This document shows, piece after piece, positions 3,801 to 31,979 of a stretch of 43,944 nucleotides of DNA (position 1 is the first letter of the stretch; every line of letters starts with the position of its first letter). Source of the stretch: a virus; the IMG/VR virus record IMGVR_UViG_3300010368_000026, positions 1 to 43,944 of that record, one strand, 5' to 3'. The notes below the pieces were generated by a model. The model saw only the letters and a list, made by a program, of their open reading frames with translations, did not search any database and was not told the origin of the DNA. The position numbers and the translations under genes were made by a program.

Positions 3801-6800
3801 ACTTCAGCAAATATAGTAGCTTTTGATAAAACAATTGATACAATTAAGATTAATGATGTTCAAACAGGCGCACAAAAATTATCTGCTAGATTACCTGATT
3901 TACCTTTTTATGTCAGTATTAATCAAATGTTAGATGCTAGATTTTTTGCAAATAACTCATTTTATGTAACTGGTAGTAGAAAGCAATTTCAAGTAACTAA
4001 TACTATATCAGCAGCTTCTGGCTCGGATTTACACATTGAATTACCCGTAAGACCTAGGGACAAAATATTTACTAGTTTGTTCGTAGACGGTATTCAACGG
4101 AGTGCTGGACAATTTACATTTAATAATAATGAGAATGTTGCAGGTAAAAAAGCTAATATTGTATACCCTGTGCAAACTGGAGATACTGAATTTAGGGTTG
4201 ATATAGATCATTATACTGTACCAGCTATAGAAATTGGAGATAACGTACAAACTTCTGTAAATGATGTATTTCCAGTTATAGCTACTAGTTATGACCCACT
4301 AAGTGCTAATTATAATGCAGCGCTAACTTCTAATGCAATTTTTAGAATTGATTTGGGAAAACGACCAGAATCAAATTTATCTGGCTTTAGTTTTACGAAT
4401 ATATCTCCTAACCCTGTTGGTACTGTGGCTAACATATCTGCAAATACTTGTACCCTCGATTACAGTGAAGTAGAATATCCAGGGTTATTTAGATTAGCTA
4501 ATAATGGTATCTATGATTTACATTTATCAACTGATTACACTCAGTTATTTTTAACAGATGATCTTGTCATTCCTAACCTACCTCTAGGGATAACATCTAT
4601 AAAGGCTAGAAATATTAATCAGTTCTCTCGTAAAAGTCCTTTTTCTGAAAAATCTATAAGAGTTAGTAATTTACCTATACAAAAAGTAGACCCTGTTGAA
4701 ATCACTGAGTCTTTGTATAGAGACGCAACTGCTGGTGTAGCTGTTCGAATTACTGTCTCATTTACTCATATTCTTGGACAAGAAGTAACCGACTATGAAA
4801 TTTCATACAAACTTGATCAAGTTGAAGATATCAATGAAGATGGTGGCGCCAGTAATCTAACATCTTTTAATACTGTTAAAATTCCTGCCACTGGTGTTGA
4901 TGTGGATGGTAAAATTAGACACACCATCAATTTTACTAATAGAGGAACTACTAGCGGTGTTAATGTTGTTACTGTTCGTATTGTACCATTAAATAAAAGT
5001 ATTAGAGGTGTCTCTACTACTGCTACTAAAACTATACTCGGTAAAACAGCAAAACCACAAAATATTTTCAATTTTACAGGTGGTCAACAGACTGATCAGA
5101 TTACACTTTTTTGGCAGTATGCTAGAGTAGATGATGAGTTAGCAGACCTAGATTTGAAAGAAGTGGTCATCCGACGCCTTCAAGGTTCGCATTCAGCTAC
5201 TTTGTCTAACTTCATTGCAGGTAATCCTTTTGTACAAGTAGCTGCTGGAGTTAACAGAAAGTCAATTCCAATTGACACTTTTGGTACGTTTACCTATCTT
5301 GCTCGAACTCGTGACACATCTGGTAACTTAAGTGAGAGCGTGGTTGCAACTATAATTACCACTTCTAGACCTAATAGAAACCAAGTTGTAGCTGCTTATA
5401 ATGAAGATAGTCCGAGTGTGTCTTTTGCAGGCATTACAAATACAAATGACGGACAAGATAATTTTCCTTCTCTCGCAAGTACCTTATTCGGAGGAGTTGT
5501 ACGTTTTGCCGAAGACACAACTGCCCCTGGTTCAGGTAATCCTTCTACTCTTGTAGATAACGCAAATGCTTCTAGTTCAGGATTTAGCACGATAGCAGGA
5601 TCTCCTACAGATATATTAGCAGATGGGGATGCTACTTATCTCACAGAAATACGAGACTTTGGTTCTACAATTACAGCAGCAGTGTTTATTGAATCTGAAG
5701 GTACTCAGTCCATTCAATCTACTTTCAATGATCAGTTTAATACACTTATTGAAAGCTCTACTGAGGCAACCTCTGCAGGGCAACTTAAAGATACAAGCTT
5801 TGGCGGGATCGGTAGTATTTTAGGGCACGGTAATACTACCTTTACGGGTGCTAGTGCAATTAGATTTGATTCGAATAACCAAACCTTAATGAGCACAACA
5901 TCATCAGGAAATGTCTATGCTATCACTACTCGTGGTGATTATACGGGAAATTCAATACCTATAGCAGGTATTACTAAAGCCTCCCCAGCCGTAGTAACTA
6001 CCAGCGGCAGCGAGCATGGACTTGTAAATGGTGATAGAATTATCGTCCATGACGTATTGGGAATGGATGAAATTAATAATAAAGAACTTTATGTAAACAG
6101 AGTCAGCGCCACACAAGTTCAGCTGTATACCGATTCTGGAAGAACTTCTGCTCTTGATTCTTCTGGTTTCACCACTTACACTTCTTCAGGTGTACTAGAT
6201 CAAGGAGACTACGCAAATGCTAATGTTGTGGCCTTTATTGCCGGAACTATAGACGCTAGTACTATTAAGCTTGGCAAGACATTCTTTGCAAATGGAACAC
6301 CTACTGGAGGAAATAATTATGCAAATCTTTCTGTAGCAGGTACTAATTACTTACTGGTTGATTTAAAGCAATTTAATGATTTTGGCTCTGCTGAGACATT
6401 TGAAGGAGATTTAGGAGCTGTATCTACTCAAGTATTTATTAGAACCACCACGGCAGCAAATGCTGATTTATACGATTCTGTTGCAGCGGGTGGCTTTGCG
6501 ACTGGTAACTTGACTCTTGATTCTGATGGGAATCCTAATTTTGATCAAGCTGATAATGGTGATGGCGGTTTTGTACCCTACGAGGCAGGAACTAGAACCT
6601 TGCGACAGTTCCAATTAAAATTTGTAGTAAACAACAAAGAGCCTGATCAGTTTGACTTTACATTTGATAAACTTCGGTATACATTAGAAAAAGAAGTTAC
6701 AATTTTTACAACAGACGTATCATTTAGTTCTAGTCCTGCAACTGTGGACTATTCTTCTGCAGGATTTTTGAATAGGCCTGTGCTTAATTTTACACCAATC

Positions 6801-6947: not shown

Positions 6948-8171
6948 ATGTCATTAGTAGATTCCAATACCTTTATTGAGCCGACAGCGGGAACCTCACT
7001 TAACTCTGCGCGTTCTCAATATAATAATGCTCTTAGATCTCTTTTAACTAATTTTAAGTCAGAGGCTATCCCTACTGCTACCAATATTGTGGCTTCTGGA
7101 GCAGGTTTAGGTGAGCAGGATGGAATGCTCTTTAGAAGTGCACTTACCAATGCTTTATACATATCAGATTCAGTGCATTTTAAATCATCTCCTGTGGGAG
7201 GAAATTTTACACGTGTAGGTGTAGGTAACAGAGTTGAAAACGGAATCGAGGCTTTAGCTGCTAATATTGCTTCATACGAGGTAGGAGAACTAGTTGCTAC
7301 TCCTTCAGCTTCTGGTGCTTTGTCAGGTAATGCCCGTCTCTATCTAAAATCAGGCAATGCTTCTAATATGACAGATCTCGTTGATGTTGGTATACCCCCT
7401 ACTAACGGGTCTGTCACAAATGTGATGTTACAACTTACGTCAATTACAGCAGACAGAATTAAAGATGGTAATGTTCTTCTAGCAAAAGCTGACTTTACAA
7501 CAGGCGCAGGAGACGGTGGGGCAGGCGCTGCTGCAACTCTTAAAATTTCATCTGCCGCTACTCAGGATACTTCTATTGGATTTAGTACTCGCGCTACTGC
7601 CAATGTCGCCTTAATCCATGTACACGGCTCTACTGGGGTTACTGCTGGTCTTAACCTCAAAGATCAGAGCGGTGCTTATGCACCTATGGCTTCTAACTTA
7701 GCTCTGCAATCAGCCATTCAAGGCGGAACAACAGCACCTGTTCCTTTAGTCCCTGCCGGTACAATGATGGTTTGGGCAGGTGCTAATGGCTCTCCACCAA
7801 CAGGCTGGTTGAACTGTCAAGGTGCTGCTGTAAGTAGGACAACATACGCAGCACTATACGCAGCTATTGGTGTAGTTTTTGGTGGGGGAGACGGCGTTAA
7901 TACATTTAATCTTCCCGACACTTCTGGTAGAGCGTTGTTTGGGACAAGCCCTTCTATTGCCGTAGGAGCAATGTCTGGAGGAATAACTGGAGCTGGAAAA
8001 GTTACTACCACTTCAGGTAATGCTAACCCAAACACCCCTACAACAGCTAACTTCTCGACAGGCGCAAAAGATGCAGGCACTGCTCCTGCTATTACTAGTA
8101 TATCGTTTGCTGGACATACGCACGATGTTACATTACCACACTGCGTGGTAAATTGGATAATTAAAACATAG
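6948..8171 (+). CDS. Tail fibre protein with phage collar domain
   Basis: The protein is 407 residues long. The N-terminal two thirds are low-complexity Ala/Asn/Thr/Ser, typical of a fibre shaft. Near residue 264 a phage tail-collar domain begins (PAGTMMVWAG, then PPTGWLNCQGAAVSRTTYAA, then NTFNLPDTSGRALFG). The C-terminus has the AGHTHD motif and ends VVNWIIKT, as in many short-tail-fibre and collar proteins, where H-x-H motifs can bind metal in the trimer tip. AGGAG at about 6934-6938 precedes the ATG, and only 3 bases separate it from the J-like stop. It probably trimerises and contributes to receptor binding. Confidence 0.88.
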   Translation: MSLVDSNTFIEPTAGTSLNSARSQYNNALRSLLTNFKSEAIPTATNIVASGAGLGEQDGMLFRSALTNALYISDSVHFKSSPVGGNFTRVGVGNRVENGIEALAANIASYEVGELVATPSASGALSGNARLYLKSGNASNMTDLVDVGIPPTNGSVTNVMLQLTSITADRIKDGNVLLAKADFTTGAGDGGAGAAATLKISSAATQDTSIGFSTRATANVALIHVHGSTGVTAGLNLKDQSGAYAPMASNLALQSAIQGGTTAPVPLVPAGTMMVWAGANGSPPTGWLNCQGAAVSRTTYAALYAAIGVVFGGGDGVNTFNLPDTSGRALFGTSPSIAVGAMSGGITGAGKVTTTSGNANPNTPTTANFSTGAKDAGTAPAITSISFAGHTHDVTLPHCVVNWIIKT

Positions 8172-8801: not shown

Positions 8802-9929
8802 ATGGCTTTAACTCGTGTAACAGGGACTGTAATATCAGCTAACGCATTAAGTGCTACTTTGTTAGCAAACGGCGCTATTGAATCGCGACACCTAGGCCCT
8901 GGAGTTGTCGGATTGATTTCTCTAACGTCTGCTGCGAATGCTGCTGCAGTGCATGTTGATCTTACCTCTAATATTAATTCTCTTCAGTCAAATATTAACA
9001 CTGTTAAGAATAATGTCGATATAGTATCTTTTAATGCAGCTGCTAATAGTGTTCAAGCTACTGCTAATATCGGTATCGTGAGTGATAATGCACTATCTGC
9101 CATCTCTAATACTGTTCAACTTTTAGCTAACCTTAACCAAACTTCCACAAATGTGGCTAGTATAATTGATGGTACGACGCCATTTACTGGCCAAGTAACT
9201 ATGCAAGATGATCTAGTGATTACTGGAAATCTTACAGTGAATGGTGATCAAACTATAGTCGATTCTACAAGTTTGACTGTAGAAGACCGTATGATAATGT
9301 TGAATGAGGGAGGGACAGGCTCTCCTTCTGCTGATGTTGGAATACTATTTAATAGAGGTAATCAAGGAAATGCGGCATTCTTTTATGATGAGTCTGCTTT
9401 AGCATTTACTGTAGCAGACACTTTTGATCCTCCGTCTAACACAACTTTATCCGCAGTAACTTTAAGTAATATCACTGTAGGTCTTTTAGCTGCTTCAAAT
9501 GTGACATATACAGGAACTGATGTTCATGTTTCTATGACAGACAATGTGGCTGCATTACAAGCTAGAATTGATGCCAATAGCACTTTTGCTACGGCTGTGG
9601 AGTCAAGACGCGTAACTAATGTAGCGGTTGCAGCTTCGAATGATTTTATTACGTTCACTAGGCTTAACGCTAACATAAACGTTGTACAAGATAATATTGT
9701 AGCTTCAACAGGTTTGGTTCCATTTGTAAATGTAATTACAACAGCAGGATCAAACGCAGTTGGAATAGGGGTTGATACTACAACAGATGCAAACGTAGTC
9801 ACCGTAACTCTCGACGGTGTTGTACAGCCGAATACTGAATTTGTCATGGATCATACCACTAATGTTTTACAATTTAAAGACGTATCTATCCCGTCTGGAA
9901 CAGTAGTAACAATATTTAGTTTAGCATAA
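8802..9929 (+). CDS. Tail fibre-like structural protein
   Basis: The protein is 375 residues long. The N-terminus (ALTRVTGTVISANALSATLL) and the block near residue 139 (ITGNLTVNGDQTIVDST, then LTVEDRMIMLNEGG) are of the type seen in fibre proteins of many marine phages. The middle is low-complexity Asn/Ala/Val with heptad-like spacing (about 45-115), consistent with a trimeric coiled coil. The C-terminal 60 residues form a compact Val/Thr-rich beta region that may cap the fibre. AAGGAG at 8792-8797 precedes the ATG. Its stop overlaps the start of the radical SAM gene by one base (TAATG). Confidence 0.82.
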   Translation: MALTRVTGTVISANALSATLLANGAIESRHLGPGVVGLISLTSAANAAAVHVDLTSNINSLQSNINTVKNNVDIVSFNAAANSVQATANIGIVSDNALSAISNTVQLLANLNQTSTNVASIIDGTTPFTGQVTMQDDLVITGNLTVNGDQTIVDSTSLTVEDRMIMLNEGGTGSPSADVGILFNRGNQGNAAFFYDESALAFTVADTFDPPSNTTLSAVTLSNITVGLLAASNVTYTGTDVHVSMTDNVAALQARIDANSTFATAVESRRVTNVAVAASNDFITFTRLNANINVVQDNIVASTGLVPFVNVITTAGSNAVGIGVDTTTDANVVTVTLDGVVQPNTEFVMDHTTNVLQFKDVSIPSGTVVTIFSLA

Positions 9930-10927
9930 TGAGAAAATACCGACAATTAACAACAGAGCTTACATTTAGGTGTAATGCTAGATGCCCAGCGTGCCATCGT
10001 TGGAAACCTCTCCGAGTAAACTTAAACGATAAACAACATACAATCACTTATGATAATTTTCAAAAATTATTTTATCCTGAACTCCTACAAAATGTAGAGT
10101 GGTTACTGTTAAACGGTAATTTTGGGGACTCTATAATGAATAAAGATTTCAGAGAAATAATTTCTTATGTAAAGTCACAAGGCACTAAGATTAAAATACA
10201 CACAAATGGCGGCATACATGGTCATGATTATTGGACCGAAGTGGGAAATATTTTAACGGATAAAGACATTATAAACTTTGATTTGGACGGTTTAGAAGAT
10301 ACTCATTCAAAATATCGTATTAATACCAAGTTTGAAAATGTGTTAGCAAATGCAAAATCAGTTATAGCTACTCAAAGGCCTCAAGTACATTGGAAGTATA
10401 TTGTTTTTGAGCATAATAAACATCAGGTAGATACAGCTAAACAAATTGCTGTAGATTGTGGATTTACTACATTTTCCACTGTAAAAACTTCTCGTGACGT
10501 ATTCGCTCCTAAATCTGGAAAATTTGTTCATACTAAAAAAACTGATGCAATCAAGACAGCAGAGAAAATAATTCGTTGTGTGTGGGATGATTGGGGTAAG
10601 TGGTATATCTCTCCAGAGGGTTTAGTTTTTAGGTGTTGTTGGACAGGAGGTCATTATTATGACGAAACATCTGGAGATCGTTTTTATTATCCTCCTAAGT
10701 TTGAACAGATGTTTAACGGTTTTCATGTTCCCATGGAAAAGATTTTAAGTTATGATTATTGGAATAAACTTCAAGATTATTTAAAAGGTTATGAGAGGTC
10801 ATTTAAATTGTGTAAATCACAGTGTGGTAAACTTATATCTTCAATAGAAAAGGAAGAGCAAAATTTGAAGACAGGAGAGAAAACTGTTTTTGATGCTTAT
10901 GCTCAAAATACAACATATGAAACCTAA
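9929..10927 (+). CDS. Radical SAM enzyme with C-terminal cysteine-rich region
   Basis: The protein is 332 residues long. The radical SAM cluster motif CNARCPAC (Cys15, Cys19, Cys22) is canonical CX3CX2C, followed by a core with an LLNGNFGDS segment where the SAM-binding glycine motif would lie. The C-terminal third carries more cysteines (RCVW near 216, RCCW near 234, LCKSQC near 293-298), a SPASM/twitch-like pattern suggesting at least one auxiliary Fe-S cluster. SPASM enzymes often modify peptides, but no obvious peptide substrate is adjacent. It is placed inside the late tail operon and coupled to the fibre gene by a TAATG overlap, with no clear Shine-Dalgarno of its own. The substrate is unknown; modification of a virion protein is one inference. 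Confidence 0.85.
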   Translation: MRKYRQLTTELTFRCNARCPACHRWKPLRVNLNDKQHTITYDNFQKLFYPELLQNVEWLLLNGNFGDSIMNKDFREIISYVKSQGTKIKIHTNGGIHGHDYWTEVGNILTDKDIINFDLDGLEDTHSKYRINTKFENVLANAKSVIATQRPQVHWKYIVFEHNKHQVDTAKQIAVDCGFTTFSTVKTSRDVFAPKSGKFVHTKKTDAIKTAEKIIRCVWDDWGKWYISPEGLVFRCCWTGGHYYDETSGDRFYYPPKFEQMFNGFHVPMEKILSYDYWNKLQDYLKGYERSFKLCKSQCGKLISSIEKEEQNLKTGEKTVFDAYAQNTTYET

Positions 10928-12012: not shown

Positions 12013-12627
12013 ATGGCTGTATTTGATAAACGCGGTATTGATGGATTCGCAGCTTCAATCACCGATATTGCTTCTGCTGATTTAACACAGGGCAACAACG
12101 GTGTATTAATGTATCCAGGTACTTACACAGCTCCAACCGCACTTAGCGCATCTGACTATGCTTTTGTTGGTGTTGGAGATCCAGATGAGATCATCATTAA
12201 TGGTGATATGACAATTGCTAACACTTCAAGTGGTGTTATCTCATTTAAAAATATTACATTCCAAGGTTCTGACGCAAGTGTGACTTCAAACACATTTAAC
12301 GTTACTAAAACTGGAATTGGTTCTTGCACACTGTTGTTTGAGAACTGTAAATTTACAAACGCTGAATCAGCTGTTAACCACTTTGGTACACTGGCTCAAA
12401 TGACCACAACAAAAGCTGTTGAAATGAGCTTCTGTGATGGCACAGGTGTTAACTCAGGTATTGCGTGTAACGCAAACGTTGAAATTAACTACTGTCGTAT
12501 GGGTGCAGGTGAGCACACACGTGTCGTTGGTGCGGGTAGCCCTGACATCACAGCTACTGTTGTAGCTTCAACAGGTGGTGCTAATGTCGGTAACATGACT
12601 GAAACAGTAACGGCTTTAATTAGCTAA
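12013..12627 (+). CDS. Probable abundant beta-structured virion protein
   Basis: A 204-residue protein of unrecognised family. It is rich in Thr, Ser, Asn, Gly and Val, with short repeating beta-strand patterns (VISFKNITFQGS, TLLFENCKFTNAES, VEINYCRMGAGE) typical of right-handed beta-helix or beta-sandwich proteins. It has its own promoter and a strong AAGGAG site. Codon choice looks more biased (many GGT, AAC, CGT and TTC codons) than in neighbouring genes. Together these suggest a highly expressed decoration, fibre or head-fibre protein. This is inference; virion proteomics would settle it. Confidence 0.75.
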   Translation: MAVFDKRGIDGFAASITDIASADLTQGNNGVLMYPGTYTAPTALSASDYAFVGVGDPDEIIINGDMTIANTSSGVISFKNITFQGSDASVTSNTFNVTKTGIGSCTLLFENCKFTNAESAVNHFGTLAQMTTTKAVEMSFCDGTGVNSGIACNANVEINYCRMGAGEHTRVVGAGSPDITATVVASTGGANVGNMTETVTALIS

Positions 12628-21352: not shown

Positions 21353-22459
21353 CTAAGTCTCCCACGAGTGCCATCCTCGTTGTTTGTATCCAAATTCTAA
21401 ATAAGTAATTATTTTATTAATACTATCTTTTGATAATTTTAACATCTCATTGACGAATATTATATCAACATTATTATCAAGTGCCAAGTCTAAATAATAC
21501 TTACGCAATCCATCGTGGTTAGGAAGAGAGTGAATACTCAGCATAATTATATTCTGTTTTTCTTGTATAAGGTCTTCAAATATTGGTAAATGTTCAAGAT
21601 GTTCATTCTCAAATGTGTAACCAGAATACTCTATGTTATTTTCTTTACAATAATCTACAATATAATTACGTTGTATATGAAGAGGAATATGCTTATCAAA
21701 AGAACTATTGTTAGAGAGATAAATTGTAGCATTTGTAGTTTTTACTTTTTCCTGCTTATAGTCTCCTGGTAGTCTAAAGAAACCGCCTGGATATCTACCA
21801 CCAAACTCTTCGCCTTCAATTAAGACATGCCAATCTATTGCCATACGAGTAATATTGGTTTCATTGTTTATATTACCGTGTATATGCTCTTGATGAAATA
21901 AATGAGCCTGTCCTGGCTTCAGAGTTACTGGAAAAGCTTTGTTTATACTCATCTTCTCAAATCGTTTTTGAGATAAATTGCTTTTAACAGTTTTACGAGT
22001 GATGAGCTTAGAATCTTCATAACCTACAATCCACATAGAATTAGAGTCATAACACTCAGTTAGAGGCATCCAAATTGTTCCTTGCCCTCTACCATTGTTA
22101 TAAAATATTCCTTGATGGAAATGTAGTCTACGTCCAAGTTTTTGTTGATTAGGCACTACAAGATTGAGGGTTGGAAATCTTTTTACTAAATACCGTTTAT
22201 TATCGATTAATGGCTTAACATATTCTTCAGCAAAATCGTCAATCATTTTACCAAATGATTCACTAGAGAATGAACGTTGTACTTTATCTGTTATTTTAAC
22301 TAAGTCTGTTAAGGGTACAAAGTTATGAATCGTTGATAGATCAGACACATTTGGGTAGTCTTGTCGAATCACATTTAATACCCAACTTGAAAAGTCATAC
22401 CTATTCAAATCGTATTCTAAGGTTTTATTATCCCAATTATCTTTATATGAGTTATGCAT
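21353..22459 (-). CDS. Two-domain protein: StrG/PhyH-like oxygenase fold plus SpoCho LIC12192-like domain
   Basis: The protein is 368 residues long. Residues 90-215 look like the phytanoyl-CoA/StrG-type oxygenase fold: RRLHFHQGIFYNN, then TIWMPLTE, then HGNINNETNITRMAIDW with His194 and Arg205. The expected HxD reads His115-Gln-Gly117. Residues 245-360 (IYLSNN, HIQRNYIVDYCKENNIEYSG, IIMLSIHSLPN, VDIIFVNEML) resemble, from memory, the LIC12192 'sporadic carbohydrate cluster' family. That family is normally a separate protein encoded beside a 2OG oxygenase. A fusion of the two is therefore inferred. Its ATG overlaps the PhoH stop by 8 bases. Exact reaction unknown. Confidence 0.65.
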   Translation of the reverse strand: MHNSYKDNWDNKTLEYDLNRYDFSSWVLNVIRQDYPNVSDLSTIHNFVPLTDLVKITDKVQRSFSSESFGKMIDDFAEEYVKPLIDNKRYLVKRFPTLNLVVPNQQKLGRRLHFHQGIFYNNGRGQGTIWMPLTECYDSNSMWIVGYEDSKLITRKTVKSNLSQKRFEKMSINKAFPVTLKPGQAHLFHQEHIHGNINNETNITRMAIDWHVLIEGEEFGGRYPGGFFRLPGDYKQEKVKTTNATIYLSNNSSFDKHIPLHIQRNYIVDYCKENNIEYSGYTFENEHLEHLPIFEDLIQEKQNIIMLSIHSLPNHDGLRKYYLDLALDNNVDIIFVNEMLKLSKDSINKIITYLEFGYKQRGWHSWET

Positions 22460-30968: not shown

Positions 30969-30993
30969 TTAAGATTGCCTTTCCTCAGAATGT

Positions 30994-31022
30994 ATGCTAA
31001 TTTATGTTTACTAGCTTGTGAA
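30994..31022 (-). promoter_or_regulatory. Sigma70-like promoter upstream of the SbcD-like gene
   Basis: On the - strand, TTCACA (31022-31017; 5 of 6 to TTGACA), a 17-base spacer, then TAGCAT (30999-30994; 4 of 6 to TATAAT). The -35 overlaps one arm of the stem-loop at 31021-31052, and CTGAGGAAAGG lies in the short leader before the ATG at 30968. Confidence 0.45.
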
Positions 31023-31052
31023 CAGCGCTACACCGCCAGGTGAAAAGCTGTT
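31021..31052. other. Stem-loop with symmetric internal loop
   Basis: AACAGC (31021-31026) pairs with GCTGTT (31047-31052), and inside it CACC (31031-31034) pairs with GGTG (31039-31042) around a 4-base loop. A 4x4 internal loop (GCTA/AAAA) separates the stems. It would fold on either strand. There is no T-tract, so it is not an intrinsic terminator. Confidence 0.55.
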
Positions 31053-31081
31053 GAACATGGCCTCCCTATATGGGTTAGCGT

Positions 31082-31096
31082 CGGCACGTAGTGCCG
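31082..31096. promoter_or_regulatory. Palindrome 1 (operator-like): CGGCACGTAGTGCCG
   Basis: A perfect 6-bp inverted repeat around the central GTA. It is centred at 31089, exactly 20 bp (two helical turns) from palindrome 2, and differs from it by a compensating C-G to A-T change in the arms. It could be a dimer-binding operator or an RNA hairpin with a 3-base loop. Confidence 0.5.
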
Positions 31097-31102
31097 CAGC
31101 AA

Positions 31103-31115
31103 GGAACGTAGTTCC
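31103..31115. promoter_or_regulatory. Palindrome 2 (operator-like): GGAACGTAGTTCC
   Basis: A perfect 5-bp inverted repeat around GTA, centred at 31109. Its half ACGTAGTTC (31106-31114) recurs inverted as GAACTACGT at 31136-31144, giving either a third half-site or a 9-bp competing RNA stem. Confidence 0.5.
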
Positions 31116-31151
31116 GCATAGCCTTAGCCACGTCAGAACTACGTCTTAATT

Positions 31152-31979
31152 TTACTCTTGTTTATTGATAATCTTTCCAACGTCACCTTCAAAAGTATAA
31201 CTTCCAACATGATTCAGCTTCGTATTTGGATCTAACCAAATCTCTCCACCAATCTTTTGCCATCTACGGCAGAAAGTATAATCTTCAGAAAGATACCGAT
31301 TATCGTCAGGATCTAACCAAGTATCAAATAATGCATAACAATATTTATTGAATCTTTCATCAATATTAGAATCATTACGATAATGAAGTTCAGGATATGC
31401 TTGACACATCTTTTCTACAGTTTCTCTTTTTATCAAAAAGAAACCAGTTGAAGCATCTAACACCTCTACTGCACCATTTTCAACTCTAATCTGACGATTT
31501 TCTTGATTAACAAACTTAAAGTTAATTGCATATTGAATTGGTAAAGCTTTTTTAGGGTATGCTGCTGCCATAATAGGCTTATCATACGCTAAAGCACGAA
31601 GTACTGACTCTACGTCAAACTCAATATCTGAATCAATAAACATCAAATGAGTACAATCTGACTCAAGAAACATAGCTGTTAGAATATTTCTAGCACGAGT
31701 AATCAAAGATTCATTACGAAGAGTAGTGATTCTAAAATTAATTCCGTGTTGCATAAATGCTTGACTTACACGAAACATTGACAAGAAATATTGATCAGTT
31801 AGCATCCCCCCATAACAAGGAGTAGCAAAGAAAATATTATGCTGTCTCAATCGTGTTAAATCAATGGTTGCTTGATTACCATCAACTTGTTTGAAAGCAC
31901 CAAAACTTTTCTTAGTAGGTTGCCCTTCTTCCGAAGTTACAACCTCTTTAGGCTTCATATCTGATAATGATTTTTTCAT
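31152..31979 (-). CDS. GT-A fold glycosyltransferase
   Basis: The protein is 275 residues long. The nucleotide-sugar/metal motif DSD is in MFIDSDIEFD (116-118). FFATPCYGG near 50-58, ITTLRNESLITRARN, and the acceptor-side LSEDYTFCRRWQKIGGEIWL block near 229-248 are typical of phage and family-2-like GT-A enzymes. It is encoded directly after the ssDNA-binding protein (adjacent ATG/stop) inside the replication block, so DNA-base glycosylation is a reasonable but unproven idea. The N-terminal 40 residues are polar and may be flexible. Confidence 0.8.
   Translation of the reverse strand: MKKSLSDMKPKEVVTSEEGQPTKKSFGAFKQVDGNQATIDLTRLRQHNIFFATPCYGGMLTDQYFLSMFRVSQAFMQHGINFRITTLRNESLITRARNILTAMFLESDCTHLMFIDSDIEFDVESVLRALAYDKPIMAAAYPKKALPIQYAINFKFVNQENRQIRVENGAVEVLDASTGFFLIKRETVEKMCQAYPELHYRNDSNIDERFNKYCYALFDTWLDPDDNRYLSEDYTFCRRWQKIGGEIWLDPNTKLNHVGSYTFEGDVGKIINKQE

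Follow-up and report, generated by a model that had tools for sequence, protein, structure and literature searches.

The sponge RNAs CsrB and RsmZ have several hairpins, variable in copy number and in their stems but with a fixed loop motif. In phage N4, the virion RNA polymerase (vRNAP) recognises a template-strand hairpin that contains a sheared G-A pair, and recognition requires a purine in the loop centre and a +1 C about 11 nt downstream, after an A spacer (PMC4496689). Furthermore, d(C-GNA-G) and GNNA DNA mini-hairpins are extraordinarily stable (PMC4686876, PMC5815330).

The element that we compare with these systems is a gap of 183 bp (30969-31151) flanked by a glycosyltransferase-like gene and SbcD. 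It lies in the window, i.e. the whole 44-kb IMG/VR virus record IMGVR_UViG_3300010368_000026 (43,944 nt) of an uncultured marine phage. The tail genes of the window form a rightward block, with a radical SAM domain protein amid them (9929-10927), and the replication cassette forms a leftward block. The order of the cassette equals that of the T5-like phage Thalassa: D5-like HTH protein, DnaB, primase, PolA, SF2 helicase, gp32-like SSB, SbcD and SbcC. Within the gap are two exact palindromes, GGCACGTAGTGCC (31083-31095) and GGAACGTAGTTCC (31103-31115), with centres at 31089 and 31109 and thus 20 bp apart, which differ by a compensating change (C-G versus A-T pair). These palindromes were pointed out in the initial annotation together with a GC-rich core (55.6% over 31020-31145 versus 32-35% in the flanks), and we could confirm both. 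In 200 dinucleotide shuffles of the window, a pair of such hairpins no more than 40 bp apart never arose. There is no conserved ORF, as the 30-codon frame of the window is lost in relatives.

Relatives were collected via SbcD and the repeat-block pattern (Table 1); the approximately 100 IMG/VR contigs obtained in this way yielded 79 different versions of homologous elements. Judged by this comparison, the observation is confirmed as genuine and the element predates this genome. In the long contigs that were searched, it has a single copy, all 79 versions keep the same orientation relative to the operon, and hairpins H1, H2 and H3 are all present in almost all of them. Rfam covariance models gave no match at gathering score (up to E 10, chance matches only), a DNA similarity search against 50,697 phage records gave chance matches only, and the repeat-block pattern was found in none of 84,980 bacterial and archaeal species genomes. 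Thalassa has neither the gap nor the paired hairpins, and some distant relatives (L253-L259) have no element near SbcD. The 72-kb relative G001 encodes a permuted tmRNA (L082 2109-2602, + strand) that was missed by ARAGORN and matches Rfam alpha_tmRNA (RF01849; 111 bits, E 2.3e-29) and tmRNA_permuted (105 bits), which suggests an alphaproteobacterial host. A second intergenic region, in G001 (22019-22161), G002 (7015-7163) and the reverse of G003 (about 12453-12587), is also conserved and carries, before a gene, a short inverted repeat and a stretch that resembles a promoter, TTGCTT...TAATAT.

Table 1. Features of the element on the window, in order of position.
Feature	Position	Strand	Remarks
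-35 hexamer TTGCCT	30975..30980	+	Putative promoter reading into the element
Extended -10, TGC-TAATTT (TGCTAATTT)	30995..31003	+	T, G, T and A invariant in 78 of 78 elements (block partly fixed by the search anchor)
Predicted small RNA	31010..31155	+	Predicted start 7 nt past the -10; predicted end at the T-rich tract CTTAATTTTAC
Repeat copy R3, GCTTGTGAA (TTCACAAGC on the - strand)	31014..31022	+	One of three copies of TTCA[AC][CT][AT]GC (- strand)
Hairpin H3, CACC-GCCA-GGTG	31031..31042	+	Loop GNNA in the window but mostly GNA in relatives; double change of CACC/GGTG to CAAC/GTTG
Repeat copy R2, GCCAGGTGAA	31035..31044	+	Overlaps H3; position 5 changes from C to A jointly with R3 (columns 147 and 169)
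Repeat copy R1, GCTGTTGAA	31047..31055	+	Third copy of the TTCA[AC][CT][AT]GC (- strand) repeat
Hairpin H2, CGGCAC-GTA-GTGCCG	31082..31096	+	Eight stem types; compensatory changes in pairs 2-5
Hairpin H1, GGAAC-GTA-GTTCC	31103..31115	+	Several stem types; compensatory changes in pairs 2-5
Alternative 9-bp hairpin	31106..31144 (31106-31114 with 31136-31144)	+	-11.5 kcal/mol; before the T-rich TTAATTTT

Loop and closing pair of the hairpins are fixed, as C-TNC-G on the operon strand, which is C-GNA-G on the + strand of the window. Among the triloops on stems of at least five pairs in the element regions, C-G-closed GTA was counted 81 times, GGA 63 times and GAA 7 times versus 4 others, and most of the apparent 5-nt loops in this count are these hairpins again, read with the closing pair as part of the loop. 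The commonest triloop classes across all 80 loci were C-TCC-G and C-TAC-G. The loop of H3 is GCA (41) or GTA (30) in 71 of the 79 elements and GNNA in six of the remaining eight (GGCA in five, GCCA in one); AGCA occurs once. A reading of the loops as UNCG tetraloops was dropped, because that register breaks the stems.

The stems, on the other hand, are free to change as long as they pair. The check for covariation on homologues that the initial annotation called for revealed matched double substitutions in the stems of H1-H3, and the column pairs that covary most strongly in the alignment as a whole belong to the H1 and H2 stems. Pair 4 of H1, for example, is GC in 43, CG in 33 and AT in 3 elements and pair 2 of H2 is AT in 40, TA in 35 and GC in 3; these counts were preselected for the loop pattern, and the triloop count given above is the check made without that selection. 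Since compensatory changes occur at every variable inner stem position, the suggestion that symmetry itself is selected is borne out. Whole-stem changes on the SbcD tree number 8 for H1 and 12 for H2, numbers that recombination may inflate: the stem types of H1 and H2 switch jointly between related phages and some of the changes therefore probably arose by recombination. The five inner pairs of the H1 and H2 stems are never G-U. The distant relative L251 has five C-TTC-G hairpins, three of them as tandem 32-bp units CTAAACTTCGTTTAG (about 4329-4393 and 4501), a fourth found by scoring and a fifth, AACTTCGTT, seen by eye in the sequence; two more have TCT loops.

The distance of two helical turns between the palindromes turned out to be a feature of some elements only. 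H1 and H2 are 20, 21, 22, 29, 40 or 41 bp apart in relatives and the distance from H2 to the repeat block is 35, 36, 37, 38, 43 or 60, so that helical phasing is not kept. Of the proposed third half-site, the 9-bp pairing itself exists, but it is limited to the clade of the window and a few others. In the window clade, this hairpin and the T-rich tract at 31145-31155 may form a terminator.

The conserved right end of the element, TAGCATA and GGCAA on the operon strand, reads TTGCC...TATGC-TAATTT on the other strand. The -10 block was partly fixed by the search anchor TA[GAC]CA[TC]A, of which the -35 is not a part; of the 78 elements, 75 have TTG at a distance of exactly 17 nt from the -10 and two have it at 18 nt. 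This TTG-17-TGnTA spacing holds despite unrelated intervening DNA and downstream genes. A distant group with SbcD near 60% identity (L242-L250, L258) has TTGGAC-18-TGC-TATTAT or TAATAT. We infer that the strand opposite to the operon carries an extended -10 promoter of the sigma70 type, which is directed away from SbcD into the hairpins and is predicted to be active. A promoter for SbcD, TTCACA-17-TAGCAT, had been assigned to the - strand; its spacer, read by eye, is 15-17 in relatives and the same DNA is the promoter of fixed spacing on the other strand, so this candidate was dropped because of its variable spacing. In six relatives of this distant group, H1 is directly followed, on the same strand as the promoter, by a GGCGGG...CCCGCC stem and then a T-rich tract, which together form a strong predicted intrinsic terminator, and terminators of -6 kcal/mol or better were found in 27 of the 79 elements. 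The conserved block coincides with the interval from promoter to end, and promoter, hairpins and terminator on one strand give the layout of a small-RNA gene.

The genes around the element are not constant. Its upstream neighbour belongs to eight unrelated protein clusters and its downstream neighbour to nine, and in the 62.5-kb relative G009 it is located about 5 kb beyond SbcD, past SbcC, with its orientation unchanged. Accessory genes are swapped on either side of the element between close phages (L002-L177).

Hairpins, compensatory evolution, loop rule, repeats, the opposite-strand promoter pattern, the terminators of distant relatives and the independence from neighbours are all seen by sequence comparison. 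We propose, with somewhat more confidence than doubt, that the element constitutes a stand-alone gene for a small non-coding RNA, encoded on the + strand of the window and opposite to the replication operon. That its promoter is active, that an RNA ending near 31155 is produced and that this RNA binds a protein we infer. TTGCCT and TGCTAATTT would start the RNA near 31010, after which it would cross the three short repeats (GC..KTGAA) and the row of C-GNA-G hairpins and stop near 31155. With the same fixed loop on interchangeable stems it may act as a multi-site binder: a host or phage protein that recognises the C-GNA-G loop, the UGAA repeats or both could be captured or scaffolded by it. The varying number of hairpin copies, from two to at least five, and the movement of the element and its survival of neighbour swaps support the RNA gene. 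The lack of G-U pairs in the inner stems of H1 and H2 counts against it, because this is unusual for RNA and expected of DNA palindromes, as does the lack of a clear terminator in many close relatives. The whole RNA does not fold clearly better than shuffled sequence (mean z -0.67 antisense, -1.16 sense) and no strand is preferred; neither folding nor G-U wobble picks the strand.

Like stand-alone small-RNA genes of bacteria and phages, the element has a sigma70-type promoter of its own, a structured body, a terminator in distant relatives and unrelated flanking genes. Unlike these, it matches no Rfam family, its RNA is predicted, and it forms an array of hairpins under one loop rule. A sponge-like mechanism, as that of CsrB on CsrA, is a tentative and rather doubtful addition: fixed loop motif, variable stems and variable copy number are shared with CsrB/RsmZ, but the element has a C-GNA-G triloop instead of ANGGA and no Rfam match to CsrB/RsmZ. 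The GGA that CsrA binds in the hairpin loops of CsrB-type RNAs was found only in some of its loops, which are GTA, GGA, GAA or GCA.

Other explanations have to be weighed against the RNA gene. The element could be the 5' leader of the - strand mRNA of SbcD, or of whichever gene lies downstream, acting as operator array or riboswitch, in line with the initial annotation. Orientation to the operon is indeed constant in 79 of 79 elements and the window folds best on the sense strand (z -4.39). Yet the association with one downstream gene that is expected of an SbcD mRNA leader was not found across relatives, where both neighbours change and, in G009, the element is separated from SbcD altogether. 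Moreover, the promoter faces away from SbcD, its spacing is conserved on the antisense and not on the sense strand, the alternative pairing is confined to the window clade and a few others, and the palindrome spacing expected of an operator array is not kept. This explanation is largely refuted and we consider it very improbable. The exchange of genes on both sides, together with the joint switching of H1 and H2 types, would also fit a spreading palindromic repeat (REP-like or a mobile stem-loop) or a recombination hub without regulatory role. However, there is one copy per genome, and promoter and repeats are conserved beyond the needs of recombination, which makes such an origin of the pattern highly implausible.

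The element also resembles N4 early (vRNAP) promoters: these are C-GNA-G hairpins with covarying stems of 5-7 bp and a 3-nt loop on the template strand relative to the downstream genes, and the element agrees with them in loop rule and orientation. The same scan on N4 finds three hairpins of the C-TNC-G type on the sense strand, located immediately before gp1, gp2 and gp15/RNAP1. The hairpins of the element could be promoters from which an N4-like virion RNA polymerase transcribes toward SbcD. However, a search with the N4 mini-vRNAP found no relative in nine related contigs, which may be incomplete, while the N4 positive control matched, and the idea was abandoned on this ground; a PF00940 search was uninformative, as its control was silent. 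The loop centre is T, G, A or C (T in the window) instead of purine only, the +1 C and its spacing are not found, 60-130 bp separate the hairpins and the downstream gene, and the element has repeats and an opposite-facing promoter in addition. It can therefore hardly be a set of N4-type promoters, an explanation that is largely refuted. A replication origin or replication-control site is an unlikely, though more serious, alternative. The + strand promoter would give rise to a transcript that serves as primer or forms an R-loop, the displaced + strand would fold into SSB-resistant C-GNA-G mini-hairpins that load primase or helicase, and the three TTCA repeats would bind an initiator, e.g. the T5 D5-like HTH protein encoded upstream of DnaB. 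With iteron-type origins the element shares short direct repeats, here with coevolving positions, an AT-rich stretch, inverted repeats and a single copy in a T5-like replication cassette. The C-G-closed GNA loops on one strand, GNNA exceptions included, follow the rule for very stable DNA mini-hairpins, and together with the inner stems free of G-U pairs they make it somewhat plausible that the hairpins act as DNA, e.g. at an origin; the stability is an oligonucleotide finding, and the energy model used here does not separate the strands. Unlike at iteron-type origins, spacing is irregular and out of helical phase, and four-fold-site skew showed no strand-composition switch at the element in seven genomes, a weak test with few sites, so that the origin suggested earlier gained no support from it. 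Thalassa and the distant relatives without the element likewise speak against an origin, and the opposite-strand promoter demotes a DNA-only role. In a combined form, which seems improbable, the promoter would drive strand separation at an origin or entry site, the expandable C-GNA-G array would act as displaced-strand DNA and a phage protein would read its hairpins. If true, SSB-resistant hairpins, which N4 employs at promoters, would in such a hairpin-marked origin serve replication as well.

As a small-RNA gene, the element would be a predicted conserved non-coding gene, missed by library searches, in widespread uncultured phages, many of them from marine samples. Its loop rule, with C-GNA-G fixed, stems free and copies ranging from two to at least five, leads one to expect a protein that binds these hairpins specifically, and offers a testable link that may connect N4-type hairpin recognition with GNA mini-hairpins and the small RNAs of phages.
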